From positions 5,408,501-5,472,500 of the forward strand of contig NZ_CP095413.1 of NCBI RefSeq assembly GCF_023016285.1: a DNA stretch of 64,000 bases, written 5' to 3'. This DNA is from Muricauda sp. SCSIO 64092. Lineage in GTDB: Bacteria; Bacteroidota; Bacteroidia; Flavobacteriales; Flavobacteriaceae. Position numbers and translations under genes: made by a program. Of the stretch, positions 35,328 through 49,002 are shown piece after piece. Every line of letters starts with the position of its first letter. Positions within the stretch are counted from its first letter, which is position 1. The notes below the pieces were generated by a model. That model ran no database searches. It worked only from the letters and a program-made list of their open reading frames with translations, and was not told the origin of the DNA.

Positions 35328-36608
35328 ATGAAAATTAAAACTACCGTACTGTTATCCTTCTTTTCATTAATGGCATTCGCGCAGGGACCAAATCTTGAAG
35401 ACGATTATAAGGCCGTTGAACCCAAAGTAATCGAATGGCGGCATGACATCCATCAAAATCCGGAACTGGGGAACAGGGAATTCAGGACTGCGGAAAAAAT
35501 TGCCAATCATTTGAGGTCCCTGGGGATTGAACTCACCACAGGGGTAGCACATACCGGGGTCGTTGGGGTCCTAAAAGGGAACAAACCCGGTAAGGTGGTG
35601 GGCCTGCGTGCCGATATTGATGCACTTCCCGTAACCGAACGCAATGACCTGCCCTTTAAATCTACGGTCACTTCAGAATTTTTAGGGGAAAAAGTAGGTG
35701 TAATGCACGCCTGCGGACATGATACCCATACCGCCATCCTTATGGGTGTTGCCGAAGTATTATCCAAGAATAAGAACCAAATCAATGGGACGGTAAAATT
35801 CATTTTTCAACCTGCAGAAGAAGGGCCACCTCCCGGGGAAGAAGGTGGAGCCTTATTGATGGTAAAGGAAGGAGTACTAAAAAATCCTGATGTGGATGCC
35901 ATATTTGGATTGCACATTAACTCCCAAACACCGGTTGGAACCATTCGATATAAAGCAGGGGGCACCATGGCCGCCGCACAGAGTTTTACCATAACGGTAA
36001 AGGGGAAGCAAAGTCATGGTTCACAACCCTGGTCTGGTGTTGACCCCATTTTGATAAGTGCAAAAATTATAGATGGGTTACAGACCATTATAAGTCGGGA
36101 GGCCAATTTGACCAATGAAGCTGCGGTCATTACCGTAGGTAAAATTAAAAGCGGGGTCCGGTTCAATATCATTCCGGAATCGGCTGAAATGATCGGTACC
36201 ATACGAACTTTGGATTATGACATGAAAGATCACATCAACAAGCGGATGAAGGAGATGGTGTCCACTATCGCCAAGGCATATGGTGGAGAGGCCACTTGTG
36301 AAATCAAGGATGCTACGGATATAACGTTCAACGACCCGGATTTAGTGGCCCAGATGTTACCCACTTTACAGCGCGTGGCTGGTAAGGAAAATGTGGTGAA
36401 CGGCAAAGCTGTTACTGGAGCGGAGGATTTCTCCTATTTTCAACGGGAAGTCCCCGGGTTTTACTTTTTTCTGGGCGGAATGACCCCAGGGAATACCACA
36501 CCCTATCCGCACCATACCCCGGATTTTAAAATTGACGATGCCGGGATGCAATTAGGAGTAAAAGCCATGACCGAGCTTACCCTGGATTATTTGAATGCAG
36601 GGAAATAA
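35328..36608 (+). CDS. Secreted M20D amidohydrolase
   Basis: The 426-residue protein has a signal peptide (MKIKTTVLLSFFSLMAFAQ) and an M20D metal hydrolase fold. Metal ligands are seen in MHACGHDTHT and FQPAEEG, followed by GLHINSQTPVG, the lid domain (KGKQSHGSQPWSGVDPI) and TGAEDFSYF with the last ligand set. The family cleaves N-acyl amino acids, aminobenzoyl-glutamate or indole conjugates. Because it is exported, it probably works on external acylated amino acids. The ATG at 35328 is preferred to an upstream TTG. It forms a pair with the DsrE-like gene. Confidence 0.9.
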   Translation: MKIKTTVLLSFFSLMAFAQGPNLEDDYKAVEPKVIEWRHDIHQNPELGNREFRTAEKIANHLRSLGIELTTGVAHTGVVGVLKGNKPGKVVGLRADIDALPVTERNDLPFKSTVTSEFLGEKVGVMHACGHDTHTAILMGVAEVLSKNKNQINGTVKFIFQPAEEGPPPGEEGGALLMVKEGVLKNPDVDAIFGLHINSQTPVGTIRYKAGGTMAAAQSFTITVKGKQSHGSQPWSGVDPILISAKIIDGLQTIISREANLTNEAAVITVGKIKSGVRFNIIPESAEMIGTIRTLDYDMKDHINKRMKEMVSTIAKAYGGEATCEIKDATDITFNDPDLVAQMLPTLQRVAGKENVVNGKAVTGAEDFSYFQREVPGFYFFLGGMTPGNTTPYPHHTPDFKIDDAGMQLGVKAMTELTLDYLNAGK

Positions 36609-36665
36609 TATTGTTGTGTTGGACAAAATCAATAGGCAGCATATGGACGTCCCTACCAATTTACA

Positions 36666-36818
36666 ATGAAAGATATTCAAGTAAAGGTAGATGATGACTA
36701 TCTTAGCAGCGATTTAATGTCCGTTTACGGTTACGAAAAAACATGGGTACCGTTTAAATCCACAAAGGATTTGTTGAACTGTCCCCACCTAGACGGTAAA
36801 ACCAAAGCTTATGCATAA
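36666..36818 (+). CDS. Unrecognised 50-residue ORF overlapping the next gene
   Basis: A complete frame of 50 codons (MKDIQVKVDDDYLSSDLMSV… to …HLDGKTKAYA) lies between the M20 gene and the OmpA-like gene. Its last bases ATGCATAA contain both its own stop and the start codon of the next gene (8-base overlap), a sign of translational coupling. Composition is acidic and soluble, with no signal or membrane segment and one Cys. I do not recognise it. The codon use looks like the neighbours. It is below the usual size limit of gene callers. Confidence 0.5.
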   Translation: MKDIQVKVDDDYLSSDLMSVYGYEKTWVPFKSTKDLLNCPHLDGKTKAYA

Positions 36819-37581
36819 AAAAATTACGCTAGTCCTTTTATTGTTTGCCGGAACAGTGTTTACAGTGGAAGCACAAAAGAAAAAGGACCTATTGGATGAA
36901 ATTGCAATGCTCAAGGACAGCATTACAAATCTGAACGATTCCATTTCCAAAGCCAGTAGGCAGGTCAATGTAAGTGTATCCAAGGCAGCACTTTTTGAAA
37001 AAGAGAATACTGAATTGCGGGATGCCAATGCCACCTTATTGAAGAATTTGAGTAGTTTTTCCCAAATCTCCAAGCAGAATACGGAAACGGTGAACAAAGC
37101 TTTGGCCAGCTTAAAGGCCAAAGAAGGACAATTACAGTTTATTACGGATAACTTTAGCCAAAATGATTCCACGGCCATTGGTATTCTTACCCAAGCCAAA
37201 CAAACCCTCGGACCTGATGCCAAGATTGGAATAAGCAACGGGGATGTGATCATTTCCAATAGCATGGATTTTCTTTTTGAAAGTGATCAGGACACCACCC
37301 TAACCGAAGGCGCGCGGACTTTTTTACCAAAAGTGGCACAAATACTGATTGCCAATCCGGACAGACAGGTTTTCGTTGAAGGTTTGAACATTACCGGGGA
37401 ATTTGGGTTGACCTACCAACAGTCCTTTTCGGTGGCCAATGCGTTGATGACCGTGGAAGGGATAAAACCGGAGAACTTGAATATCCTGGTCAAGGATGGA
37501 AATTTTAAAGAGGGAATCAATATTCGACTTACCTCCAATAAGGAAGAGTTTTATGCACAGTTAAAGGAGGAATTCAAATAA
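36811..37581 (+). CDS. Secreted OmpA-like coiled-coil protein with degenerate binding site
   Basis: The 256-residue protein has a signal peptide (MHKKITLVLLLFAGTVFTVEAQ), a coiled coil (about residues 23-115) and an OmpA-like C-terminal fold. The peptidoglycan-binding residues are changed: EGHTDD of the paralogue at 28622 reads EGLNIT here, and NRRTRI reads GINIRL. So it probably does not bind cell wall in the usual way. It overlaps the 50-residue ORF upstream. Function unknown; a periplasmic scaffold is one possibility. Confidence 0.75.
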   Translation: MHKKITLVLLLFAGTVFTVEAQKKKDLLDEIAMLKDSITNLNDSISKASRQVNVSVSKAALFEKENTELRDANATLLKNLSSFSQISKQNTETVNKALASLKAKEGQLQFITDNFSQNDSTAIGILTQAKQTLGPDAKIGISNGDVIISNSMDFLFESDQDTTLTEGARTFLPKVAQILIANPDRQVFVEGLNITGEFGLTYQQSFSVANALMTVEGIKPENLNILVKDGNFKEGINIRLTSNKEEFYAQLKEEFK

Positions 37582-37643
37582 GAATTGCCATATACTTTTC
37601 CCCATAGTTTACCGTTCTTAACACATCAAAACCAAAACACAAC

Positions 37644-38162
37644 ATGAGCGGAGACCAGATTTTTCAATTGTTTGCCTATTTGTTACCCGCTGTGGTCACG
37701 GGAGCCGTAGCATTCTATTTTTTTCGTTTACATACCAGAAATGAAGAAGGACGAAGACGATTTTTATTACATAAGGATTCCCAAAAAGAAACCTTACCAA
37801 TACGATTGCAGGCCTATGAGCGTATGGTTTTGTTCCTGGAACGCATAGCCATCAATAATTTGGTTGTGCGCGTTGCTCCAAAAGGACAGAATAAATCCAA
37901 TTATGAAAATTTGCTCATCAAACAAATTGAAAATGAATTTGAGCACAACCTCTCCCAGCAGGTGTATATGAGCGATGAGTGTTGGAATATCATCAAAGCG
38001 GCGAAAAGTGCCACTATTCAGATTATTCGATCCGCGGGAATGAGCGATTCGGAATCGGCCGATAAACTCCGTGAGGATATCTTAAACCAGTCCATGGAAA
38101 AACAGTCGCCATCTGCCACCGCCTTGGCATTTGTAAAGAAAGAAATCGGTGATCTTTGGTAA
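37644..38162 (+). CDS. Conserved membrane protein, N-terminal anchor
   Basis: The 172-residue protein has one N-terminal membrane segment (IFQLFAYLLPAVVTGAVAFYFF) followed by a cytoplasmic helical domain (LPIRLQAYERMVLFLERIAINNLVVR; NEFEHNLSQQVYMSDECWNIIKAAKSATIQII). I recognise the pattern as a conserved Bacteroidota protein of unknown function (DUF7935-like). It is 62 bases after the OmpA-like gene and converges on the patatin gene. Confidence 0.65.
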   Translation: MSGDQIFQLFAYLLPAVVTGAVAFYFFRLHTRNEEGRRRFLLHKDSQKETLPIRLQAYERMVLFLERIAINNLVVRVAPKGQNKSNYENLLIKQIENEFEHNLSQQVYMSDECWNIIKAAKSATIQIIRSAGMSDSESADKLREDILNQSMEKQSPSATALAFVKKEIGDLW

Positions 38163-38235
38163 AAAATACACATTGATCTCCACAATGAAACATGCTATCG
38201 ATCATAAAGGAATTCCTTTATGGGCCCACCACTGA

Positions 38236-39150
38236 TCATTCGTGCAAATCCGGTTCAATGGGCATGCTTTCCACATTCTTGTTCTTGGCATAGAGGTACC
38301 CTTTTTTCCACCATAACCTCATTTTTTCCTTGTTGAAAATGAGGGAATTCGTAGTCAAAACGGTTGGGGTGTAATACAGATTGATAATGGCATCCCGTTG
38401 ATTGGCGACCAGCTTGCCCACACGTATATTCTGGTTTTCGATACGATCCAATACAAAGGAAAACATACTGGTCAAAAGCTCAAAGGGGTTTCGGGATGGC
38501 ATTCGATTGTAATAGCTTACTTCGGTGCGAAGCACGATAACATCTATTTCGGTCGCGCCACGAACAATGGCCTCTTCAATGGGAACAAGACTTCCCAGAC
38601 CCCCATCCGCATATTCACAACCATTTTTTCGGACCAAACTCATAAAAGGGGTGTAATTGGCAGAAATCCAAATCCAGTCACAGAATTCATCATAATCAAA
38701 ATCGTTGATGGATTTGTATTCAATACGATTAAGGGAAAGGTTGGATACCGTGACCACAATATCCTTTGGACCTTGCTTTAAGGTGTTGAACTCTTCCTGT
38801 GTAATGCTATTGCGAATAAGTTCCCTTAGGTTCTCACTTTCCCCAAAGGTTTTTTTGCCCCTGATAAAATTCTTAAGGATGTTCCAGTGGTTCATTCCAA
38901 TAAGATCGGCCCCAAATTTTTTCCGGATAACAAATGGGCAGTTATTGAAAATGCTATCCTGATCGACCGAAGAATAGATGTCACGGATTTTAGTGATCTT
39001 TCCCAATCCCAAATGGGATATCAATAGACTTCCTGTTGAAGTACCCACCAGGATGTCGTATTCCTTCTTTGCTTCCTCAATCAGGTAATGGGCTACGCCC
39101 CCAGCAAAGGCACCCTTACTCCCACCGCCGGAAATGACCAATGCTTTCAT
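38236..39150 (-). CDS. Patatin-like phospholipase
   Basis: The 304-residue protein has the patatin catalytic pattern: oxyanion loop SGGGSKGAFAGG at the N-terminus, nucleophile elbow GTSTGS and the catalytic aspartate in EYADGGLGS. The family hydrolyses acyl groups from phospholipids. There is no signal peptide, so it should be cytosolic or membrane-associated. The ATG at 39150 overlaps the stop of the upstream M1 aminopeptidase as ATGA. A 50-codon upstream extension in frame lies wholly inside that gene and is rejected. Confidence 0.9.
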   Translation of the reverse strand: MKALVISGGGSKGAFAGGVAHYLIEEAKKEYDILVGTSTGSLLISHLGLGKITKIRDIYSSVDQDSIFNNCPFVIRKKFGADLIGMNHWNILKNFIRGKKTFGESENLRELIRNSITQEEFNTLKQGPKDIVVTVSNLSLNRIEYKSINDFDYDEFCDWIWISANYTPFMSLVRKNGCEYADGGLGSLVPIEEAIVRGATEIDVIVLRTEVSYYNRMPSRNPFELLTSMFSFVLDRIENQNIRVGKLVANQRDAIINLYYTPTVLTTNSLIFNKEKMRLWWKKGYLYAKNKNVESMPIEPDLHE

Positions 39151-41312
39151 GGACTGAGTACGTTTTTTAATGTTTTCCTTTCCTTTTCCGAAAGTTTTTC
39201 CCGTAGGGCGAGCAATTGATTTTTCCCATCCTGCAAAGCGTTTATTTTGCGAATTAACTTTCTCGATGATTTTTTGAATTGCCAAATATGGTGATTGCAC
39301 GCTTGAACTAGGTTTCTGAGGGAAACATCATTCAATGCACGTATTTGATGTAAATATTGGAAAGCCAATTGCCGTACTTCAAAATTGAAATGTGAAGCGG
39401 TATAGCCATTCAATTCGTCATAAAAGGATTTCTTTCTTTCCGGTTGATAATCCTGACTTAGCAATGCCAGTGTCAACCACAGTAATCTTACATTTCTATT
39501 GGGCAGTCCCACTACCCCATCCAATTGGTCTAAATAAGCTGCCCTATTTTTAGGGAAAGCATCCCAGAGCTTAAAAAGAACGGTTTCCTGGGTTACATAG
39601 CTCTGATCGGTCAGCATGCTTTCAAAATCGGATTGCAGTTCTTTGGGTACTTTGGGAACCGTTAACGCAACTGCCTGTCTTATCCGTAAAGGCGTGTTGG
39701 CAATGATTTCACTTAAACTGGAATCTGGAATCCGGTTGCCATAGGTAAAAATAAACTGTCGTTTAAATTCTTCCGGGATTTCATTTTCCCATAGCAGTGC
39801 CAGTTTTTGTTCATCCATGATTGTTGTGTCCGTAACTGTATTTTCAATCTCAAAGAAAAGCTTTAAGGACTTGTTGGCTTTCTTTAGATGGGCCTTTACT
39901 TCTTGCCATGGGAATTCCTCACTTTCCAACCACTTTTCACGATAATCCGTCAAGTCCAAGCCCGATACCATTTCCATTTCTGAAAGAAAATTGTCAATGG
40001 TAACATTCGTAAAGGCGTATTTCTCCAAATAGGCCTTAATCCCCTTTTTAAAGGCAACTTCCCCAATTTCCTCACGAAGCATGGCCAGTGCCCAAGCTCC
40101 TTTTTCATAAAAGGTCAGACTATTGGCATTAGGGTCCGTTAACGCTTCCCCACCCTCATTTTCAGAAAGGTTGTGCAAGGTTTTGGCCGTTTGGTACAAC
40201 TTCCAGTAAAAATGGTCTTCGCCAAATACTTCTTTTTCTGCCAAATAGGCGTAAAAGGTTGCAAAACCTTCATGTAGCCAATGGTGTTTACCGCTAACTT
40301 CGGTAACCATATTGCCAAACCACTGGTGTACCAGTTCATGTGCATTGACATTGACATAGTTTTTGTCCACAAAGGCGATGGAATCAATGACATATTGATT
40401 GGAGAATACGGTACAGGACGTATTTTCCATGCCCGCATAGAGAAAATCCTGAACAGGGACCTGCTTGTAGTTTTGCCATGGGTATGGAACACCGATCTCT
40501 TCCTCCAAAAAATCAAACAGCTCCTGGGTATAGCGATATGTAGGTTCCATTTTTAGACTGTCCTCAGGCGCATAATACAGTTCTATGGGCACTCCAGAGC
40601 TGGATTGTATCACTTCTTTGTCAAAATTTCCAATCACAAAGGCGGCCAAATAACTGCTCATGGGATGGTTCATGTCAAAATGCCATTTCCCTGATCCATT
40701 GTCCATAGTTTTATCCGTTAACCTTCCATTGGATATAACGGTATATTCCTTATGAGCTGTAATGGTGAAATCGAATTCGATTTTGTCGTTCATATCATCA
40801 ATGGAAGGCAACCAATGACTGGTATACTTCCCCTGTCCCTGGGTCCATATTTGGGCTTTTTTTCGATTATGTAGATGTAATAATTTGGAATTTAGCGCGG
40901 ATACTATACCCTTGTATGTAGGGTTTAAGCTATCGGTTTTTTTTAGAACCGAATCCAGCCCATCCCAACCCGTGAAATATACCGCTTGATTCGGTTTGAC
41001 GGAATAAGTCAATTCCAAAAGGTGATTACCAAGCTTTCTAGGTGCTTTGACACCAATTCTTTGGTTTGAATTTGAATACTTGATTTTCTTTCCGTTTAAT
41101 TCGACCTTTTCAAAAGTCATGTTTACGGCATCCAAAAAAATGGAATCCGTCCTGGAAATCAAATCAAACTCATAGGTAGCCCATCCCTTTATTGTTTTAT
41201 TGGAAAAAGAAGGGGTGATTTTAGCATCCACTTTAATGAAATCCACACTTTTCTGTCGCTGCAAAAAACAGAGCAGGGACAACAATAAAAAAACAGGAAA
41301 CAAATATCTCAT
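39147..41312 (-). CDS. M1-family zinc aminopeptidase
   Basis: The 721-residue exported protein starts with a signal peptide (MRYLFPVFLLLSLLC). The M1 features are intact: AGMENTSCTVF (substrate-binding GAMEN variant), zinc site HELVHQWFGN with the third ligand in WLHEGFATF. C-terminal HEAT-like repeats follow (LDYLQ-like helical region from about residue 540). It cleaves N-terminal residues from peptides outside the cytoplasm. The ATG at 41312 is chosen over an upstream TTG. It is translationally coupled to the downstream patatin gene and divergent from recG. Compare the inactive M1-like protein at 12802. Confidence 0.93.
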   Translation of the reverse strand: MRYLFPVFLLLSLLCFLQRQKSVDFIKVDAKITPSFSNKTIKGWATYEFDLISRTDSIFLDAVNMTFEKVELNGKKIKYSNSNQRIGVKAPRKLGNHLLELTYSVKPNQAVYFTGWDGLDSVLKKTDSLNPTYKGIVSALNSKLLHLHNRKKAQIWTQGQGKYTSHWLPSIDDMNDKIEFDFTITAHKEYTVISNGRLTDKTMDNGSGKWHFDMNHPMSSYLAAFVIGNFDKEVIQSSSGVPIELYYAPEDSLKMEPTYRYTQELFDFLEEEIGVPYPWQNYKQVPVQDFLYAGMENTSCTVFSNQYVIDSIAFVDKNYVNVNAHELVHQWFGNMVTEVSGKHHWLHEGFATFYAYLAEKEVFGEDHFYWKLYQTAKTLHNLSENEGGEALTDPNANSLTFYEKGAWALAMLREEIGEVAFKKGIKAYLEKYAFTNVTIDNFLSEMEMVSGLDLTDYREKWLESEEFPWQEVKAHLKKANKSLKLFFEIENTVTDTTIMDEQKLALLWENEIPEEFKRQFIFTYGNRIPDSSLSEIIANTPLRIRQAVALTVPKVPKELQSDFESMLTDQSYVTQETVLFKLWDAFPKNRAAYLDQLDGVVGLPNRNVRLLWLTLALLSQDYQPERKKSFYDELNGYTASHFNFEVRQLAFQYLHQIRALNDVSLRNLVQACNHHIWQFKKSSRKLIRKINALQDGKNQLLALREKLSEKERKTLKNVLSP

Positions 41313-41359
41313 ACGTAGCCTATCCTCAAAATTCAAGCCAATTTAGCTATTTTAGTTCG

Positions 41360-43900
41360 ATGCAATCCGGTGTTCTTCATACTCCTTTGGTTTATCTAAA
41401 AGGTGTTGGCCCCAACAGGGCCGAAACCTTAAAGGCGGAACTGGGATTGGAGACCTTTGGCGACCTGCTCCAGCTTTATCCCAATCGATATCTGGACAAA
41501 ACCCAATACTATAAGATCAATCAACTAAAGGATAGTGGTGCGGATGTTCAGATAGTGGGCAAAATTGTCCATTTAAAGACCATAGAACAAAAACGGGGAA
41601 AACGTCTGGAAGCCTCTTTTGTGGATGGCACCGGGGAAATGAAATTGGTGTGGTTTCGATCCCAAAAATGGATTCGGGAAAATCTTAAGATCAACGAACC
41701 CTATGTGGTCTTTGGTCGAATCAATCGATACGGCAGTGCTTTTTCCATGCCCCATCCCGAAATGGAATTGCTTAAAGACCACCAGGCCGGGCTTAAGATC
41801 GGCATGCAGCCCATTTACCCATCTACGGAAAAATTAAGCGCCAAGGGCATTACCAATCGGGCCGTAAGCAAAATGGTACAGCAGCTCTTTTTGGAAACCA
41901 AGGCCAATTTCGTAGAGACCCTATCAAAAAGTCTAATTGAGGAATTTAAGTTAATGGCGAAAGCCGATGCCCTTTTGAACATTCATTTTCCAAAAAGTCA
42001 GGAGTTGTTGGCCAAAGCCCAGTTTCGACTAAAATTTGAGGAACTATTTTTCATTCAGCTCCAATTGCTATCCAAAAAAGCAGCGCGGAAAAAGAAAATC
42101 AAAGGCTTACCTTTTACCGAGGTGGGGGAAAAATTCAATGATTTCTTCAAAAACCACCTTCCCTTCGAATTGACCAATGCCCAAAAACGGGTCATCAAGG
42201 AAATTCGAAACGATATGGGCAGTTCAGCCCAAATGAACCGGCTTTTGCAGGGGGATGTGGGTTCGGGCAAGACCATTGTCGCCCTAATGTGTATGCTTTT
42301 GGCCATTGATAACGGCTTTCAGGCCTGTCTAATGGCCCCAACTGAAATTTTGGCGCAACAGCACTACAATGGCCTCAAGGACCTGTTGGGCAAAATGGAT
42401 TTAAAGATTGCCTTGCTCACAGGTTCAACCAAACGGGCGGAACGCACTTTTTTGCACAATCAATTGGAAAATGGGAATCTAAATATTTTGGTGGGCACCC
42501 ATGCCGTTTTGGAAGATAAGGTGCACTTTAAAAATTTGGGATTGGCCATTATTGATGAGCAACATCGTTTTGGTGTGGCACAACGGTCCAAATTATGGCA
42601 CAAAGGCAGCCCACCCCAAATCCCTCCCAAAGGGAGGGTGGCCGAAATCCATCACAAATACCAAACAGCGAGACCTTCTGCCTATAAGATGTTAAAAGAA
42701 CTTCAACGGGAGCGGAAAAAACATACCACGGAAGCCGAGCGCATTCTTTGGGAACAATTAAAGACCAAACAACTTGGAATAAAGTTTAGAAGGCAACATA
42801 TTATTGATGAGTTTATCGTCGATTTTGTTTGCCTATCCAAAAAATTGATTGTTGAAGTGGATGGCGGATACCATGGCACTCCGTCTCAAAAAGAAGCTGA
42901 TACCATACGAACGAAGATTTTGAATGAATTTGGGTACAAAGTTATACGGTTTACCAACGAAGAAGTAATCGGAGCTATCAGCACCGTTCTCAAAAAAATA
43001 GAGGACGAATTAAATAACCTCCCCTTGGGGGAGGAAGGAGGGGCGGTCCCTCCCCATATCCTGGTCATGACCGCAACTCCCATTCCACGGACGTTGGCCA
43101 TGAGTCTGTATGGAGACCTGGACATTTCCGTGATTGATGAACTACCACCGGGCCGTAAATCCATTAAAACGGTACACCGCTTTGACACCAATCGATTAAA
43201 GGTATTTGGATTCATTAAGGATGAGATTAAAAAAGGCCGTCAGATTTATATTGTATATCCATTGATTCAGGAAAGTGAGGCTTTGGATTACAAGGATTTA
43301 ATGGATGGCTATGAAAGCATTGTCAGGGAGTTCTCGACTCCGGATTATCAAATTTCCATTGTTCACGGGCAGATGAAACCACAGGACAAGGATTATGAAA
43401 TGGAACGGTTTGTAAAAGGGGAAACCCAAATTATGGTGGCAACCACCGTAATTGAAGTAGGTGTAAACGTACCCAACGCCTCCGTTATGATAATAGAAAG
43501 TGCCGAACGTTTTGGTTTATCCCAACTCCACCAGTTACGCGGGCGTGTAGGAAGGGGCGCGGAACAGAGCTATTGCATCTTAATGACCAGTTATAAACTT
43601 TCTGAAGATGCCAAAACCCGTTTGGAAACCATGTGTAGGACCAATGACGGTTTTGAAATTGCAGAAGTGGATTTAAGACTACGTGGCCCAGGCGACCTTA
43701 TGGGCACCCAACAAAGCGGATTGTTAAACCTAAAAATTGCTGATATCATAAAGGATAACCCCATTTTAAAATCTGCACGTTATCACGCCAATGAGACCCT
43801 GAAAAATGACCCAAAATTGGAAAAAGGGGAAAATTTGCCCATCCGAAGGGCGTATGCTGAACTGGTCAAGGATAAAGCCATTTGGGGATATATTAGTTAA
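41360..43900 (+). CDS. recG: ATP-dependent DNA helicase RecG with in-frame DUF559 insert
   Basis: RecG remodels stalled replication forks and Holliday junctions. The 846-residue frame has the wedge/OB domain at the N-terminus, Walker A GDVGSGKT (298-305), motif II DEQHRFGV (399-406), motif III TATPIPRT (571-578) and the C-terminal helicase half with RGRVGRG. The usual length is about 700. The excess is a 148-residue block (416-563) that has nothing to do with RecG and encodes a DUF559 nuclease-like domain. Removing it joins LWHK to PPHILVMTATP, a normal RecG sequence, giving 698 residues. The frame is open throughout, so either a chimeric protein is made or the block is processed out. The downstream terminator is at 43900. 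Confidence 0.95.
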   Translation: MQSGVLHTPLVYLKGVGPNRAETLKAELGLETFGDLLQLYPNRYLDKTQYYKINQLKDSGADVQIVGKIVHLKTIEQKRGKRLEASFVDGTGEMKLVWFRSQKWIRENLKINEPYVVFGRINRYGSAFSMPHPEMELLKDHQAGLKIGMQPIYPSTEKLSAKGITNRAVSKMVQQLFLETKANFVETLSKSLIEEFKLMAKADALLNIHFPKSQELLAKAQFRLKFEELFFIQLQLLSKKAARKKKIKGLPFTEVGEKFNDFFKNHLPFELTNAQKRVIKEIRNDMGSSAQMNRLLQGDVGSGKTIVALMCMLLAIDNGFQACLMAPTEILAQQHYNGLKDLLGKMDLKIALLTGSTKRAERTFLHNQLENGNLNILVGTHAVLEDKVHFKNLGLAIIDEQHRFGVAQRSKLWHKGSPPQIPPKGRVAEIHHKYQTARPSAYKMLKELQRERKKHTTEAERILWEQLKTKQLGIKFRRQHIIDEFIVDFVCLSKKLIVEVDGGYHGTPSQKEADTIRTKILNEFGYKVIRFTNEEVIGAISTVLKKIEDELNNLPLGEEGGAVPPHILVMTATPIPRTLAMSLYGDLDISVIDELPPGRKSIKTVHRFDTNRLKVFGFIKDEIKKGRQIYIVYPLIQESEALDYKDLMDGYESIVREFSTPDYQISIVHGQMKPQDKDYEMERFVKGETQIMVATTVIEVGVNVPNASVMIIESAERFGLSQLHQLRGRVGRGAEQSYCILMTSYKLSEDAKTRLETMCRTNDGFEIAEVDLRLRGPGDLMGTQQSGLLNLKIADIIKDNPILKSARYHANETLKNDPKLEKGENLPIRRAYAELVKDKAIWGYIS
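42605..43048 (+). mobile_element. In-frame DUF559 insert within recG
   Basis: The 444-base block is a multiple of three without stops. It opens with the palindrome CCCTCCC-AAA-GGGAGGG (42622-42638) and closes with CCTCCCC-TTG-GGGGAGG (43018-43034). A possible target duplication, CCCACCCCA (42610-42618) and CCCTCCCCA (43048-43056), matches 8 of 9. Inside, residues about 445-555 form a Vsr-like DUF559 domain: HTTEAERILWEQLKTKQLG, KFRRQH, IVDFVC (Asp488), VEVDGG (Glu499, Asp501) and FGYKVIRF. The nuclease core residues are intact. DUF559 genes flanked by such palindromes occur alone between genes in other Bacteroidota; here the unit sits inside an essential-type repair gene without breaking it. 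Confidence 0.85.
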
Positions 43901-43925
43901 AACGCCCAACAAATGCTGGGCGTTT
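43900..43925. terminator. Terminator between recG and the DUF2911 gene
   Basis: AAACGCCCA (43900-43908) pairs with TGGGCGTTT (43917-43925) over an 8-base loop. The outer A/T bases serve both directions. It overlaps the recG stop codon and lies 23 bases from the converging gene. Confidence 0.85.
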
Positions 43926-43947
43926 AAAATGAAATAGATAGGTAAGC

Positions 43948-45057
43948 TTAATTGATGTCAGTTCCTTCCTTGAGCTTTTCCATATTGGTGGCAATCGCAT
44001 TTTTGTTTTGGGGGTCCGGAGCCCTTTCTTCCGCAATTTTTATGTGCTTTATGGCCGCTTTATAATTGCCCAAGGCAGAATAGCCCCTGGCCAGTCCATA
44101 ATCCACGGGCCACTGATTCTTGTGGTTTTTGGCATTCCATTGAAAAACTTCCAAAGCCTTGTCCTTTTGTCCGGCTGCAATCAATTGCCTTCCGTAACCA
44201 TGCACTTGGAATACGGTCCCCATGGGCATGGCCTCATCCATAATGGTCGTAGCTTCGGCCATCTTACCTTGCTTCATCAATATCCGGGCCTTGATGGCCA
44301 TATTATTGAAGGTTTTTTGACTGAAGAATTGACCGGCAATGGCCGCATCGATCCACCCCATGGCTTCCTCCAAATCCCCACCATTGTTGAGTGCAAAATT
44401 GGCCGCTTGCTCCCAGGTTTGTCGGTTGAACCCTTCCTGGTTCTGCATCTTGGAACGAATATCGGTCAAAACGATATCAGTTACCGGGACCTCAATTTTG
44501 AATGGGAACTGTTTTTTCTCCCAATTCAATGAAGCAACGGCGGAATTGGCATCCACTTCATTAAATTCAAATTTCAACTGCTCCACATGGGGAATCTCGG
44601 CAGTGGAAATATCCACTTGCAGTACATCCTCCGAAGGCTCGTAAAAATAGCTTCCCCAGGCGCCATGGTTTTTGGAGAACAGCACTTTGGCCGTATTATC
44701 CTCATTGACCACAATATGGAGACCGTATTTTCCTGCAGGTAGTTCCTTACCCGCAATTTTAATGGCATGTGTGGTTTTAAAAATGGTGTTTTCATTGGCT
44801 CCTGCACGCCATGGGGACTCCTTGGCCGTACCAAATCCAAAATTGTTCATTCCGTAGGGAACCAGTTGTCCCCAAATTTCGCGATCGTTCACACTGGGCC
44901 GTGAATAAACGATGGTAATGTCCGTAATCCCGATACGCTGGGAAACTTTCGCCATCTGACTTCCTCGTGGAAGGTCCAATTGGGCAAAGGCCTCGCTATA
45001 GAAGCAAAGGCAGACCAATAATGACATCATCATGGTCGTTAGGTAGCATTTTTTCAT
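43948..45057 (-). CDS. Secreted DUF2911 protein with TPR repeats
   Basis: The 369-residue protein has a signal peptide ending SEAFAQ. The first part is a DUF2911 domain, with the typical LDLPRGSQMAKVSQRIGITDITIVYSRPSVNDREIWG and WRAGANENTIF. The second part has TPR-like helices (NNMAIKARILMKQGKMAEA; GLARGYSALGNYKAAIKHIKIAEE). DUF2911 proteins are common in Bacteroidota; their function is unknown. It is a single gene converging with recG. Confidence 0.88.
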   Translation of the reverse strand: MKKCYLTTMMMSLLVCLCFYSEAFAQLDLPRGSQMAKVSQRIGITDITIVYSRPSVNDREIWGQLVPYGMNNFGFGTAKESPWRAGANENTIFKTTHAIKIAGKELPAGKYGLHIVVNEDNTAKVLFSKNHGAWGSYFYEPSEDVLQVDISTAEIPHVEQLKFEFNEVDANSAVASLNWEKKQFPFKIEVPVTDIVLTDIRSKMQNQEGFNRQTWEQAANFALNNGGDLEEAMGWIDAAIAGQFFSQKTFNNMAIKARILMKQGKMAEATTIMDEAMPMGTVFQVHGYGRQLIAAGQKDKALEVFQWNAKNHKNQWPVDYGLARGYSALGNYKAAIKHIKIAEERAPDPQNKNAIATNMEKLKEGTDIN

Positions 45058-45370
45058 TTGTTTGTCTTTAATTTAGGTTAACTTATTTCGAGTACTACTA
45101 AAAGTATCCATTGATTTAGGCCCAATTCGTTACTGGGATGTTAAATGAAGGCCCATGATGTTAAAAAAGGTCTTTTTGATTGGGAATTAACAGATAATAC
45201 ATTCAATTTAACATACCAAACCAACGATTAGTATTGATTATAAATTATTGATTTTAATGGTATTAATAGTGCATTTACGGCTTTGGACATCGTAATTGAC
45301 ATAGGTCCCAAATAGTCTTAAGAGGATTACAAATTTTATATTTGACGGTTAATTTGGAAAAGATTCTGAG
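45058..45370. other. Leader and promoter region of the leu operon
   Basis: No gene is visible. The region is A/T-rich and carries the TATATTTG box at 45337-45344. I found no convincing leader peptide with a leucine run and no T-box-like structure. Confidence 0.45.
45337..45344 (+). promoter_or_regulatory. TATATTTG -7 box for the leu operon
   Basis: TATATTTG fits TAnnTTTG, 26 bases before the leuC ATG. It is the best promoter candidate for the leuCDAB operon. Confidence 0.5.
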
Positions 45371-46777
45371 ATGGGCAATACACTCTTCGACAAGGTTTGG
45401 GACGCGCACGTGGTCAAAAAAATAAAAAACGGCCCAGACGTTTTATTTATTGACCGCCACTTGGTTCACGAGGTCACAAGTCCTGTGGCTTTTTTGGGTT
45501 TAAAAAATAGGGGGATTCCCGTTTTGTACGCCGGAAGGACCTTTGCAACCGCGGATCATAATACCCCAACACTCAACCAACACTTACCGGTAAGCGACCC
45601 GCTGTCCGCAAACCAGTTAAAAGCACTGGAAAAAAACGCGGCTGAACATGGGATTCCGTACTGGGGATTGGGACATGAAAAAAATGGTATTGTCCACGTT
45701 ATCGGTCCGGAAAATGGGATTACCCTGCCTGGAGCCACAATTGTATGTGGGGATTCCCATACATCCACCCATGGCGCATTTGGGGCCATTGCATTTGGTA
45801 TTGGAACGTCCGAGGTAGAAATGGTGCTCTCCAGCCAATGTATTATGCAGCCCAAGCCCAAGAGTATGCGTATCAATATCAATGGGAAGCTAAATTTTGG
45901 GGTAACCCCCAAGGATGTGGCATTGTACATTATTTCGCAACTGACCACTTCCGGTGCAACCGGTTATTTTGTGGAATATGCTGGTGAAGTCTTCCGTAAC
46001 ATGAGTATGGAGGGACGTATGACCGTCTGCAACCTTAGTATTGAAATGGGGGCCCGTGGGGGTATGATCGCTCCTGACACCACCACATTTGAATACATCA
46101 AAGGGCGTGAGTTTGCCCCCAAAGGTGCGGATTGGGATAAGGCCATGGCGTACTGGGAAACTTTACATTCCGAGGACAATGCCGAATTTGATAAGGAACT
46201 CAGTTTTGATGCCGCCAATATAGAACCCATGATCACCTATGGTACCAATCCCGGAATGGGTTTTGGTATTTCCAATAGCATCCCAAAAGCAGGTGAGGGA
46301 ACCAGTGCAAATACGTATAAAAAATCCTTGGCCTATATGGATTTCAACGAGGGGGAAGCCATGTTGGGCAAGGTTATTGACTTTGTATTTCTTGGAAGTT
46401 GTACCAATGGTAGAATAGAGGATTTTAGGGCATTTGCCTCCATTGTGAAAGGGAGAAAGAAAGCGGAAAATGTTACGGCATGGTTAGTGCCCGGCTCCCA
46501 TAAAGTGGAAGAAGCCATTAAGGAAGAGGGCATTTTGGAAATCCTTCATGAGTCCGGTTTCAAGCTCCGTGAACCAGGTTGTTCTGCTTGTTTGGCTATG
46601 AACGATGATAAAGTTCCGGCAGGAAAATACGCGGTAAGTACATCCAATAGGAATTTTGAGGGCAGACAGGGCCCAGGTGCACGAACCCTATTGGCAAGCC
46701 CCTTGGTGGCTGCGGCTGCCGCAGTAACAGGAGTGGTGACCGATCCCCGTGAACTCATGGAACTGCAGGAAGCCTAA
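45371..46777 (+). CDS. leuC: 3-isopropylmalate dehydratase large subunit
   Basis: LeuC, with LeuD, isomerises 2- to 3-isopropylmalate in leucine synthesis, and can also act in the citramalate route to isoleucine. The 468-residue protein shows [11 protein letters not shown], the first cluster region [24 protein letters not shown], and cluster cysteines in [15 protein letters not shown] and [11 protein letters not shown], which hold the 4Fe-4S centre. [16 protein letters not shown] near the end is standard. It opens the leuC-leuD-leuA-leuB operon. An 84-base 7-bp array separates it from leuD. Confidence 0.96.
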
Positions 46778-46796
46778 TTCCCTATAACAATCAAAC

Positions 46797-46880
46797 CATC
46801 AACCATCAACCATCAACCATCAACTATTAACCATCAACCATCAACCATCAACTATTAACCATTAACCATTAACTATTAAC
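46797..46880. repeat. 7-bp tandem array, 12 units of YATYAAC, abutting leuD
   Basis: Twelve contiguous units: CATCAAC x4, TATTAAC, CATCAAC x3, TATTAAC, CATTAAC x2, TATTAAC. On the other strand the word is GTTRATR, close to the GTTRARG of the array at 34501. The last unit ends two bases before the leuD ATG, so the array occupies the whole place where a ribosome-binding region would be. Unit gain or loss would shift spacing but not any reading frame. Confidence 0.92.
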
Positions 46881-46882
46881 CA

Positions 46883-47479
46883 ATGGCATACGATAAATTC
46901 AATATACTCACATCAACCGCAGTACCACTACCGATTGAAAATGTGGATACGGACCAAATCATTCCTGCACGCTTCTTAAAAGCTACGGAACGTAAAGGGT
47001 TTGGGGACAATCTTTTTCGGGACTGGCGATACAATCCTGACAACACCCCTAAGTCCCAATTCGTATTGAACAATCCTATCTATGGTGGAAAAATTCTGGT
47101 CGGTGGCAAAAACTTCGGTTCCGGTTCTTCCAGGGAACATGCGGCCTGGGCAGTTTATGACTATGGTTTCCGTTGCGTGGTCTCCAGTTTTTTTGCGGAT
47201 ATTTTCAGAAACAACTGCTTGAATGTGGGCGTACTTCCCGTTCAAATTGGTCCTGATTTTTTGGAAAAAGTCTTTAGGGCCATTGAAGCCGACCCTAAAA
47301 CAGAGTTTAAGGTAGACCTGGCCGAACAGACTTTTACCATTCTTAGTACGGGCGAATTCGAAACATTCGGAATCAATGAGTACAAAAAAGAAAATATGAT
47401 GAACGGTTTTGATGATATTGACTACCTCTTGAACATTAAGGAAGATATCAAAACCTTTGCTGAAAGACGGCCTTTCTAA
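46883..47479 (+). CDS. leuD: 3-isopropylmalate dehydratase small subunit
   Basis: The 198-residue swivel-domain subunit pairs with LeuC. It shows NVDTDQIIPARFLK near the N-terminus, GKNFGSGSSREHAAWA (substrate binding) and FRCVVSSFFADIFRNNCLNVGVLP. Length is normal. The ATG follows the 7-bp array by two bases and there is no Shine-Dalgarno sequence, so translation may depend on coupling to leuC or on the array itself. leuA-like starts 8 bases downstream. Confidence 0.95.
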   Translation: MAYDKFNILTSTAVPLPIENVDTDQIIPARFLKATERKGFGDNLFRDWRYNPDNTPKSQFVLNNPIYGGKILVGGKNFGSGSSREHAAWAVYDYGFRCVVSSFFADIFRNNCLNVGVLPVQIGPDFLEKVFRAIEADPKTEFKVDLAEQTFTILSTGEFETFGINEYKKENMMNGFDDIDYLLNIKEDIKTFAERRPF

Positions 47480-47487
47480 AACTGCGT

Positions 47488-49002
47488 ATGGCAAGAACCA
47501 TAGAAATAATGGATACCACCCTTAGGGATGGTGAACAAACTTCAGGGGTTTCGTTTACGGCATCGGAAAAGCTGACCCTTGCAAAATTGTTACTGGAAGA
47601 ACTCAAGGTGGACCGCATTGAGGTAGCTTCCGCCAGGGTCTCCGAAGGCGAATTTCAAGCGGTCAAAAACATTACGGACTGGGCCAGTACCACGGGGCGT
47701 ATCCTTCAAGTGGAAGTTTTGACCTTTGTTGATGGTGGAGCATCCATAGCATGGATGCAAAAGGCAGGTGCCAAAGTACAAAACTTGCTTACCAAAGGGT
47801 CTTTGAACCATTTGACCCATCAGCTTAAGAAAACCCCGAAAGCCCATTTTGAAGGTATTGCAGAAGTAATCCAACTTGCTCAAAAGGCCAATATTGAGAC
47901 CAATGTGTATTTGGAGGATTGGAGCAATGGTATGCGAAACTCGCAAGAGTATGTGTTCCAGTTTTTGGACTTCTTGATCCAACAGCCGGTTAAACGGATT
48001 TTACTCCCCGATACCCTGGGAATTCTAACGCCTTCCGAAACCTTTGAATATATTGACATCATTGTTAAGCGATATCCCAATATCCATTTTGATTTTCATG
48101 GCCATAATGACTATGACCTGAGTGTTTCCAATGTAATGGAAGCGCTTAAGGCGGGGGCCTATGGTCTGCATTTGACCATTAATGGTATGGGGGAACGCGC
48201 TGGCAATGCCCCATTGGCCAGTACCATTGCCGTTATCAATGATTTTTTGCCGGAAGTGAGGACCAAGGTCATCGAATCCTCATTGTTTAAAGTGAGTAAA
48301 TTGGTGTCCACATTTACCGGCTTCGGGATTCCTGCCAATAAACCGATTGTAGGGGACAATGTCTTTACCCAAACCGCGGGTATCCACGCAGACGGGGATA
48401 ATAAGAACAATCTTTACTTCAGTGAACTGATGCCGGAACGTTTTGGGAGAAAACGGAAATATGCACTGGGCAAAATGTCGGGTAAGGCCAATATTCAAAA
48501 AAATCTGCAGGAACTGGGATTGACGCTAAACGAGGATGAACTGAAAAAGGTCACTGCACGCATCATCGAATTGGGCGATAAAAAGGAAAAAGTCACTAAA
48601 GAAGACCTGCCCTATATTATTTCGGATGTTCTCGATAGTAGCTCCTTTCAGCAAAAGGTGTTCATTAAATCCTATGTACTTACCCATGCCAAAGGATTAA
48701 TGCCCTCCACTACCCTATCCATAGAAATTGAGGGAAAGACCTTTGAAGCCAATGCCCAGGGTGATGGACAATTTGATGCGTTTATGAATGCCCTGCGCAA
48801 GGTATATGAGGAACAATCGAAAAAACTTCCAAAATTGGTGGATTATGTAGTGCGTATCCCTCCAGGAAGTAGTTCAGATGCCCTCTGTGAGACCATGATC
48901 ACCTGGAAGACCGCTAAAAACGATTTTGTAACCACCGGACTGGATTCCGACCAGACGGTATCGGCCATAAAGGCTACAGAGAAAATGTTGAATTTGATTT
49001 GA
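47488..49002 (+). CDS. Alpha-isopropylmalate/citramalate synthase family enzyme
   Basis: The 504-residue protein is a DRE-TIM metallolyase, which condenses acetyl-CoA with a 2-oxo acid. The N-terminal catalytic barrel shows MDTTLRDGEQTSGVSFTASEK, HFDFHGHNDYDLSVSNV and TINGMGERAGNAPLAS; the C-terminal allosteric domain runs from about residue 380. The gene sits with leuCD and leuB. The opening and the GEQTSGVSF motif are nearer to the group that includes citramalate synthases than to classical LeuA, so the substrate could be pyruvate or 2-oxoisovalerate. The damaged ilvA at 62105 makes the citramalate option worth testing. Confidence 0.82.
   Translation: MARTIEIMDTTLRDGEQTSGVSFTASEKLTLAKLLLEELKVDRIEVASARVSEGEFQAVKNITDWASTTGRILQVEVLTFVDGGASIAWMQKAGAKVQNLLTKGSLNHLTHQLKKTPKAHFEGIAEVIQLAQKANIETNVYLEDWSNGMRNSQEYVFQFLDFLIQQPVKRILLPDTLGILTPSETFEYIDIIVKRYPNIHFDFHGHNDYDLSVSNVMEALKAGAYGLHLTINGMGERAGNAPLASTIAVINDFLPEVRTKVIESSLFKVSKLVSTFTGFGIPANKPIVGDNVFTQTAGIHADGDNKNNLYFSELMPERFGRKRKYALGKMSGKANIQKNLQELGLTLNEDELKKVTARIIELGDKKEKVTKEDLPYIISDVLDSSSFQQKVFIKSYVLTHAKGLMPSTTLSIEIEGKTFEANAQGDGQFDAFMNALRKVYEEQSKKLPKLVDYVVRIPPGSSSDALCETMITWKTAKNDFVTTGLDSDQTVSAIKATEKMLNLI

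Follow-up and report, generated by a model that had tools for sequence, protein, structure and literature searches.

In Muricauda sp. SCSIO 64092 (Flavobacteriaceae), the recG gene lies on the forward strand at positions 41360-43900 of a 64,000-nt stretch of DNA (contig NZ_CP095413.1, positions 5,408,501-5,472,500; hereafter the window, whose numbering is used throughout) and carries a 148-codon block with a nuclease-like DUF559 domain. The reading frame of recG comprises 846 codons without a stop. A Pfam scan of its product revealed wedge, OB, DEAD, Helicase_C and RecG C-terminal domains, and by its wedge, DEAD, Helicase_C and C-terminal domains it is predicted to be a RecG helicase. Between the two helicase halves, at aa 446-551 (42695-43012, forward strand), the same scan placed a DUF559 domain (PF04480, E 3.6e-32). 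The block itself (444 nt, 42605-43048, forward strand) is situated on the RecG loop between helicase motifs II and III. An earlier note on this DNA, made from the sequence alone, had proposed such a block inside an unbroken recG. DNA alignment with two related genomes, one empty (G584) and one occupied (G582), bears this out (G- and L-numbers denote sampled genomes and fetched loci, G000 being the genome of the window). The proposed edges coincide exactly with the junction seen against the empty allele, and the frame is open throughout. A sequencing or frame error was ruled out by the second assembly (G582), which has the same block with the frame open.

The palindromes noticed earlier at both ends of the block are exact, each with a 7-bp stem and a 3-nt loop. 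The left hairpin (42622-42638) reads CCCTCCC-AAA-GGGAGGG and the right (43018-43034) CCTCCCC-TTG-GGGGAGG. Beside the left hairpin is an outer C-rich arm, AGCCCACCCCAAAT (42608-42621, forward strand), and beside the right one its inverted counterpart, the outer G-rich arm AAGGAGGGGC (43035-43044, forward strand). When the window was scanned for hairpins with a perfect stem of at least 6 bp, a loop of 2-6 nt and a C- or G-rich arm, the only other one found was a 6-bp hairpin at 43037-43053, which overlaps the right edge of the block. The putative catalytic residues, on a PD-(D/E)XK-type reading, are Asp488 (42821-42823) and the E-x-D motif Glu499-Val500-Asp501 (42854-42862), both on the forward strand.

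Empty and occupied alleles

The close relative G584 has an empty recG site that reads WHK-NEI-PPH, as against WHK-[148 codons]-PPH in G000. In DNA the two alleles are TGGCACAAA-AATGAAATA-CCTCCCCATATC and TGGCACAAA-[444 nt]-CCTCCCCATATC, respectively. The 9-base target duplication suspected in the earlier note is absent, since the 444 nt stand in place of 9 nt, the three codons for Asn-Glu-Ile. Across 11 genomes of the genus, with occupancy judged by frame length and DNA compared in G000, G582 and G584, nine recG frames were of 701-741 aa and two, those of G000 and G582, of 886 aa. As only two of the 11 carry the block by this measure, and most recG frames of the family are short, the block is not an ancestral part of RecG. 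In the family sample the C-terminal part of recG was matched in 198 of 199 genomes. Among the 150 recG matches listed for the family, a few of which end at contig ends, six have long frames of 848-886 aa (G000, G061, G125, G163, G132 and G006).

A second occupied site in G000 is found in the gene for methionine synthase (MetH, identified by Pfam), a 1041-aa frame with an in-frame DUF559 unit and hairpin ends. By frame length, MetH is long in two of the 11 genus members (G000, 1041 aa; G581, 1037 aa) and of 897-913 aa in the other nine; the near relatives G582 and G584 have empty MetH alleles. DNA of six genomes shows that the MetH insertion replaces a linker of about ten residues. At both sites the replacement of codons (three in recG, about ten in metH) is easier to account for by the copying of an occupied allele than by a fresh, clean insertion.

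The nuclease domain is under constraint. Asp488, Glu499 and Asp501, singled out in the earlier note, are invariant in all 81 RecG inserts compared (those of proteins of at least 825 aa, from 90 recognised RecG proteins). The ratio of nonsynonymous to synonymous change (dN/dS) in the insert, for 21 pairs in total, was 0.05-0.14 in 14 of the 15 pairs with a finite value; that of G000 and G582, from four changes, was 0.27. In the flanks it was 0.04-0.08, finite in 9 of 21 pairs. These ratios are rough, as dS was saturated and gave no ratio in six insert pairs and 12 flank pairs and other dS values exceeded 1; by them the insert is constrained, less so than RecG itself. Folded alone, the insert gave a predicted structure with a mean predicted local distance difference test score (pLDDT) of 79. 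A profile search of the PDB, with matches to E 0.1 considered, returned only 3hrl (endonuclease-like protein, 1.1e-26) and 3r3p (titled mobile intron protein, 3.9e-6). The only Foldseek matches below 0.001 were 3hrl (2.1e-7) and the homing endonuclease I-Bth0305I (2.7e-4), followed by mitochondrial-ribosome proteins and, at 0.07, Vsr. Fold and sequence homology link the insert to the EDxHD/Vsr-like homing endonucleases. A modest model of the whole RecG (mean pLDDT 71, predicted template-modelling score 0.43) has the domain folded at 426-553, and the linkers that the hairpins encode, at 417-425 and 555-562, have pLDDT below 50.

The absence of splicing motifs, also claimed earlier, was borne out within the reach of the scans. 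A Pfam scan of the RecG protein found no intein domain, and no intron RNA family was found up to E 1 in 41300-43950, where the two RNA-family matches (E 0.2 and 0.8) were to other families and far below gathering scores. No transposase domain is listed by Pfam for the recG product; its extra domain is DUF559, not a Y1/HUH transposase.

A family of hairpin-ended units in Bacteroidota

DUF559 is present in 222 of 395 sampled Bacteroidota genomes, and G000 has nine matches, some of them fragments. The search proposed in the earlier note, for in-frame DUF559 in other conserved proteins, found such units across the phylum. Besides RecG, the hosts include MetH, leucyl-tRNA synthetase (LeuRS, at two sites), HsdR, HsdM, Eco57I-type and type ISP methylases, methylmalonyl-CoA mutase, UvrD-like helicases and an M23 peptidase. 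N-terminal fusions to HemD, HemF, HisF, RNase HI, threonine dehydratase and RnpA are less certain, as the true start may lie downstream. The fetched regions were chosen mainly for long frames and are no random sample. Searched against proteins, the RecG insert matched 2598 of them, and among the 120 listed were RecG, the isoleucyl-, leucyl- and methionyl-tRNA synthetases (IleRS, LeuRS and MetRS), MetH and others. Eight full proteins picked from these 120 had two DUF559 units each by eye, and some of them showed hairpin-like remnants without a nuclease (e.g. P0016). In a separate search that listed 102 matches down to E 6e-22, with frame lengths entered by hand, 33 lie in frames of at least 250 aa and 24 in frames of at least 800 aa. 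In-frame DUF559 units, many with G/C hairpin ends, are thus a large family across Bacteroidota.

The ends of the units consist of a hairpin of C/G-rich arms plus an outer or inner C/G-rich arm. The typical left end in RecG is AGCCC(A/T)CCnCAnTCCTCCC-nnn-GGGAGGA, and the typical right end, its inverse, is CCTCCCC-nnn-GGGGAGGTTGG(A/T)GGGGCTT. Two counts were made of the hairpins at RecG loci, both with the loci as sampled and kinship uncorrected. At 65 junctions scored from genome contigs (one of 66 loci, without a matched junction, was left out), 45 left and 53 right ends had stems of at least 6 bp, the right ends including two loci (L242, L243) where the hairpin picked is not the unit's own; control windows had such stems in 6 of 1157 (110 nt) and 5 of 1157 (90 nt). 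A looser pattern, taken at the best site in the window around each of 67 loci and to be read against its own controls, gave at least six of seven pairs at 64 left ends (control 86/606) and 65 right ends (control 49/605). A loose arm pattern, run without a control, matched the left outer arm at 64 and the right at 49 of these 67 loci. Five positions of the left stem show both C-G and T-A pairs (kinship again uncorrected); the hairpin is therefore kept while its letters change. With so little besides G and C in them, the ends would offer few possible stop codons in any frame.

Under a strict criterion (perfect stems of at least 7 bp, without its own control), a 5' hairpin was present in 45 and a 3' hairpin in 36 of 76 long-frame loci, so clear ends are not found in every unit. 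Elsewhere in the long-frame loci there are 31 further in-frame hairpins, of which 17 are unit-like by eye and many are unlike the unit (e.g. L017, L121, L143, L146). Copies within a genome are alike over about 400-520 bp, ending at or near hairpin units. Several intergenic copies are bounded by similar hairpin-arm units in both orientations, some with the arm inside the hairpin. The G000 genome has four CCTCCC..GGGAGG sites with loops of 2-6 nt, two of which are the block's own ends; with only two such sites outside the block, a high-copy background of repetitive extragenic palindromes (REPs) was ruled out in this genome.

Several loci deserve separate mention. An intergenic stretch of G000 (L162, C1 around 2173894) holds a pair of C/G-rich hairpins about 50-80 nt apart in which DUF559 was not seen, and may be a nuclease-less relative of the unit. 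The N6_N4 methylase ORF of L122 has five unit-type C/G hairpins in frame besides those at its own DUF559 unit. Also in G000, an apparently intergenic tandem array (L018, C1:3981088-3982392) has repeated hairpins and four DUF559 copies, of which three are truncated and one is intact. In L020 (G000, C1:2397000-2405000) a match at about 2400990-2401307 joins DUF559, in one 261-aa frame, to the N-terminus of the RNase P protein, whose true start may lie further downstream. Decayed or domesticated units may be present at the LeuRS loci L081 and L082, whose inserts score weakly for DUF559 and lack recognisable hairpins; the same site elsewhere holds active-looking inserts. In L083 (G125, C1:233000-240000) DUF559 lies inside an ORF that matches an intein splicing domain below the curated cut-off, with the motif VVHNC; this is apparently an intein with the same type of nuclease as the RecG block.

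History of the units

A tree of 64 in-frame units, those whose host could be labelled, was compared with ten host-site labels. It needed nine label changes, the minimum possible, and shuffled labels needed 41.5 on average and never fewer than 35. The RecG and MetH units of G000 each group with units of other genomes at the same site. The LeuRS2, Eco57I and HsdR labels do not form single clades, and support is low for some clades. Such clustering by site resembles recurrent spread at fixed sites more than the free selection of new loops, and so speaks little for the choice of frame-neutral loop sites suggested in the earlier note. Since the number of switches in the tree does not exceed what the labels demand, jumps to new sites are rare.

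The RecG insert does not share the history of its surroundings. The insert data reject the tree of the recG flanks by 516 log units (approximately unbiased test, p 1e-35, with a program warning of few replicates), and same-size windows of recG set against the rest of recG gave 83, 102, 93 and 113 log units, also significant. Between G000 and G582 the block differs at 4 of 444 nt, as against 635 of 12640 nt outside it (p 5e-6) and 76 of 2097 nt in the recG flanks (p 0.0014). Compared in 500-nt windows, G000 is closer to G584 in all 8 from 36 to 40 kb, to G582, the other carrier, in all 12 from 40 to 46 kb, and once more to G584 in 5 of the 6 from 46 to 49 kb. This mosaic divergence of the three genomes over 36001-49000, switching near 40 kb and near 46 kb, is consistent with a recombined tract spanning recG. 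The similarity of G000 and G582 is best read as the result of an exchange in which the block was part of a tract of about 6 kb.

Two other routes were considered and found no support. Recent transposition between sites of one genome was not seen, the best non-overlapping copies within a genome being 77-82% identical among 30 of the 40 matches of five genomes, and a phage vector was sought in a scan of viral contigs with two narrow patterns, which gave no relative.

Interpretation and rival explanations

The block is most readily understood as an unspliced, in-frame, homing-like nuclease element that is kept in the protein as a tethered domain, a reading to which we give a probability of about 0.6. 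Relatives of the unit in many other essential genes suggest a selfish element that spreads while residing inside working proteins. The comparisons show that the unit is present in some sister species and absent from others, that it has spread horizontally at one and the same site, that its lineages are site-specific and that the nuclease is constrained; alleles present or absent at one conserved site with horizontal spread are what would be expected of a homing endonuclease gene. Most of the mobile unit envisaged in the earlier note has therefore stood, namely its empty sister sites, many host genes, hairpin ends, site lineages, discordant trees and homing relative; the target duplication has not.

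The block would then be a copy of a widespread mobile element in which a Vsr/I-Bth0305I-like (DUF559) frame lies between two inverted hairpin-plus-arm units, translated as part of RecG without a recognisable splicing device. Its G/C-rich ends would become short, flexible Pro/Gly-rich linkers that tether the nuclease as a domain. The nuclease, either tethered to the host protein or translated from a start inside the insert, would cut or nick an uninterrupted allele, and host repair would copy in the occupied allele with some flank, which amounts to homing without splicing. Arrival in a new gene would be rare, with survival only where the frame is kept and the protein structure can accommodate the insertion. 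The hairpin-only units found in these host proteins may be non-autonomous relatives.

Several observations weigh against this homing-like interpretation. Nuclease activity, the target and the homing event itself are things we infer. Control windows from recG also reject the tree of the rest of the gene, so the evidence is the excess (516 against 83-113) and not mere significance. Six of the 42 well-supported flank splits are contradicted by well-supported insert splits, of which there are 18, and ten are shared. Over the 605 nt immediately left of the block, G000 and G582 show nine differences and are almost as alike as in the block itself, and the tract of about 6 kb exceeds the size of the element, so its exchange could be ordinary recombination. 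Near-identical copies at different sites were not found in five genomes with 30 of 40 matches compared, nor was a viral relative in the one scan of viral contigs (87 pattern matches). An in-frame ATG precedes the nuclease core in 47 of 67 RecG inserts, so the nuclease may be started separately. The codons flanking the MetH unit of G000 are mixed evidence, and no proof of copying from an occupied donor: ESKK is common to the occupied G581, and AGKIL is present also in the empty G588.

The length of the tract and the similarity of the flank just left of the block would suit a passive passenger, an old in-frame insertion in the recG loop that moved among Flavobacteriaceae only by recombination of the whole recG region, with its nuclease not the driver. 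This is unlikely, given catalytic residues that are invariant in 81 of 81 inserts and the same kind of unit recurring in many unrelated genes, and the departure of the insert from the history of its flanks is such that whole-region transfer alone is insufficient. More credible, and a reading we regard as possible if somewhat improbable, is transposition of the REP type, in which the hairpin-arm units would be mobile ends, DUF559 a transposase-like nuclease analogous to the RAYT of REPs, and homing at the same site secondary. The intergenic copies bounded by hairpin-arm units in both orientations fit it, as do the hairpin-only units in frame in the same host proteins (the 17 unit-like cases among the 31 extra hairpins, and P0016). 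It sits poorly with a host-site tree that has no surplus switches, with the lack of recent high-identity copies at different sites in the genomes compared, and with the scarcity of CCTCCC..GGGAGG sites in G000.

The earlier note had also allowed that the block might give RecG a nuclease function. On a wider form of that idea, the domain would add a function such as junction processing or defence to RecG and other hosts and be under selection for it. The domain is under constraint, and several hosts are DNA enzymes (RecG, UvrD-like helicases and restriction-modification proteins). The alternative is weakened because it leaves unexplained the presence of like units in methionine synthase, leucyl-tRNA synthetase and haem-synthesis enzymes; the hosts MetRS, IleRS, HemD, HemF, HisF and threonine dehydratase, and the empty state of most recG alleles, point the same way, and we consider it improbable. 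Least probable by far is a degenerate intein or an intron-borne endonuclease whose splicing part was lost or is hidden. The nuclease is of a homing type, and DUF559 does occur inside the intein-like ORF of L083. The Pfam library that flagged the intein there found none in RecG, and no intron family was matched in the region. Only about 42 codons of the block lie outside DUF559, too few for an intein splicing domain. The block is moreover without a stop codon, so there is no need for its removal.

The homing-like element has partial counterparts among known systems. Like the EDxHD/Vsr-like homing endonucleases, it recurs at fixed sites in conserved genes and spreads horizontally, and it shares its fold and detectable sequence homology with I-Bth0305I. 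Unlike I-Bth0305I, titled a mobile intron protein, it was seen without an intron or intein and forms an in-frame fusion with the host protein. The inteins section of a cyanobacterial genome paper places DUF559 in the EDxHD homing family (PMC9403480), and in Caulobacter it has been called Vsr-like (PMC12907096). T4-like phages are described as having homing nucleases inserted in genes without splicing, with the host gene split, as with the free-standing endonuclease gene mobE inside nrdA of phage Aeh1 (PMC2988022). Like mobE, the nuclease gene here lies within a host gene of functional importance and has no self-splicing element; in contrast to the separate coding regions described there, the recG frame continues through the nuclease.

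The hairpin ends recall two further groups. Palindromic elements of Rickettsia are inserted in frame in protein genes (PMC10969869; PMC2229807), and REPs have been reported inside DNA repair genes and tRNA synthetases, the CGTC class having Bacteroidetes among its five phyla (PMC3733652, with the intragenic cases in its section 15). The RecG block resembles both in having palindromic units in frame in a conserved gene with the frame kept. It differs in its 444 nt and its conserved DUF559 domain, as these elements are given in those accounts as about 20-150 bp (some clusters longer), with no nuclease domain mentioned, and it would thus not count as a short element without an enzyme gene. In REPtrons, as described, a RAYT transposase of the Y1/HUH type is flanked by REPs (PMC3733652). 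The present unit is likewise a nuclease gene flanked by inverted hairpin-arm repeats, but with a DUF559 domain and often in frame inside genes. No prior description of in-frame DUF559 units, or of an unspliced in-frame nuclease element, was found in the literature searched, most subscription journals being outside its scope. We would place the hairpin-ended element close to the homing endonuclease elements; proven membership is not claimed, because cutting of the empty allele is a deduction.

On the usual view, a mobile nuclease gene that lies in conserved coding sequence needs an intron or intein if its host is to be spared. The DUF559 element family seems to manage without either, with ends that read as linkers free of stops and a nuclease that is tolerated as a domain. 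We propose, tentatively and at somewhat under even odds, a class of selfish elements in which a hairpin-arm-framed nuclease lies in the reading frames of essential genes, is retained in the mature protein, homes to the empty allele by means of the tethered nuclease, has hairpin-only satellites and has spread through a large part of Bacteroidota. The natural pairs of occupied and empty alleles at two or more sites are direct test material for homing without splicing. If such a class exists, many housekeeping enzymes of Bacteroidota would be chimeric, with many tRNA synthetases, MetH, RecG and restriction enzymes carrying a DNA nuclease domain. This would bear on the annotation and structural biology of the host enzymes, and on how new domains enter old proteins.

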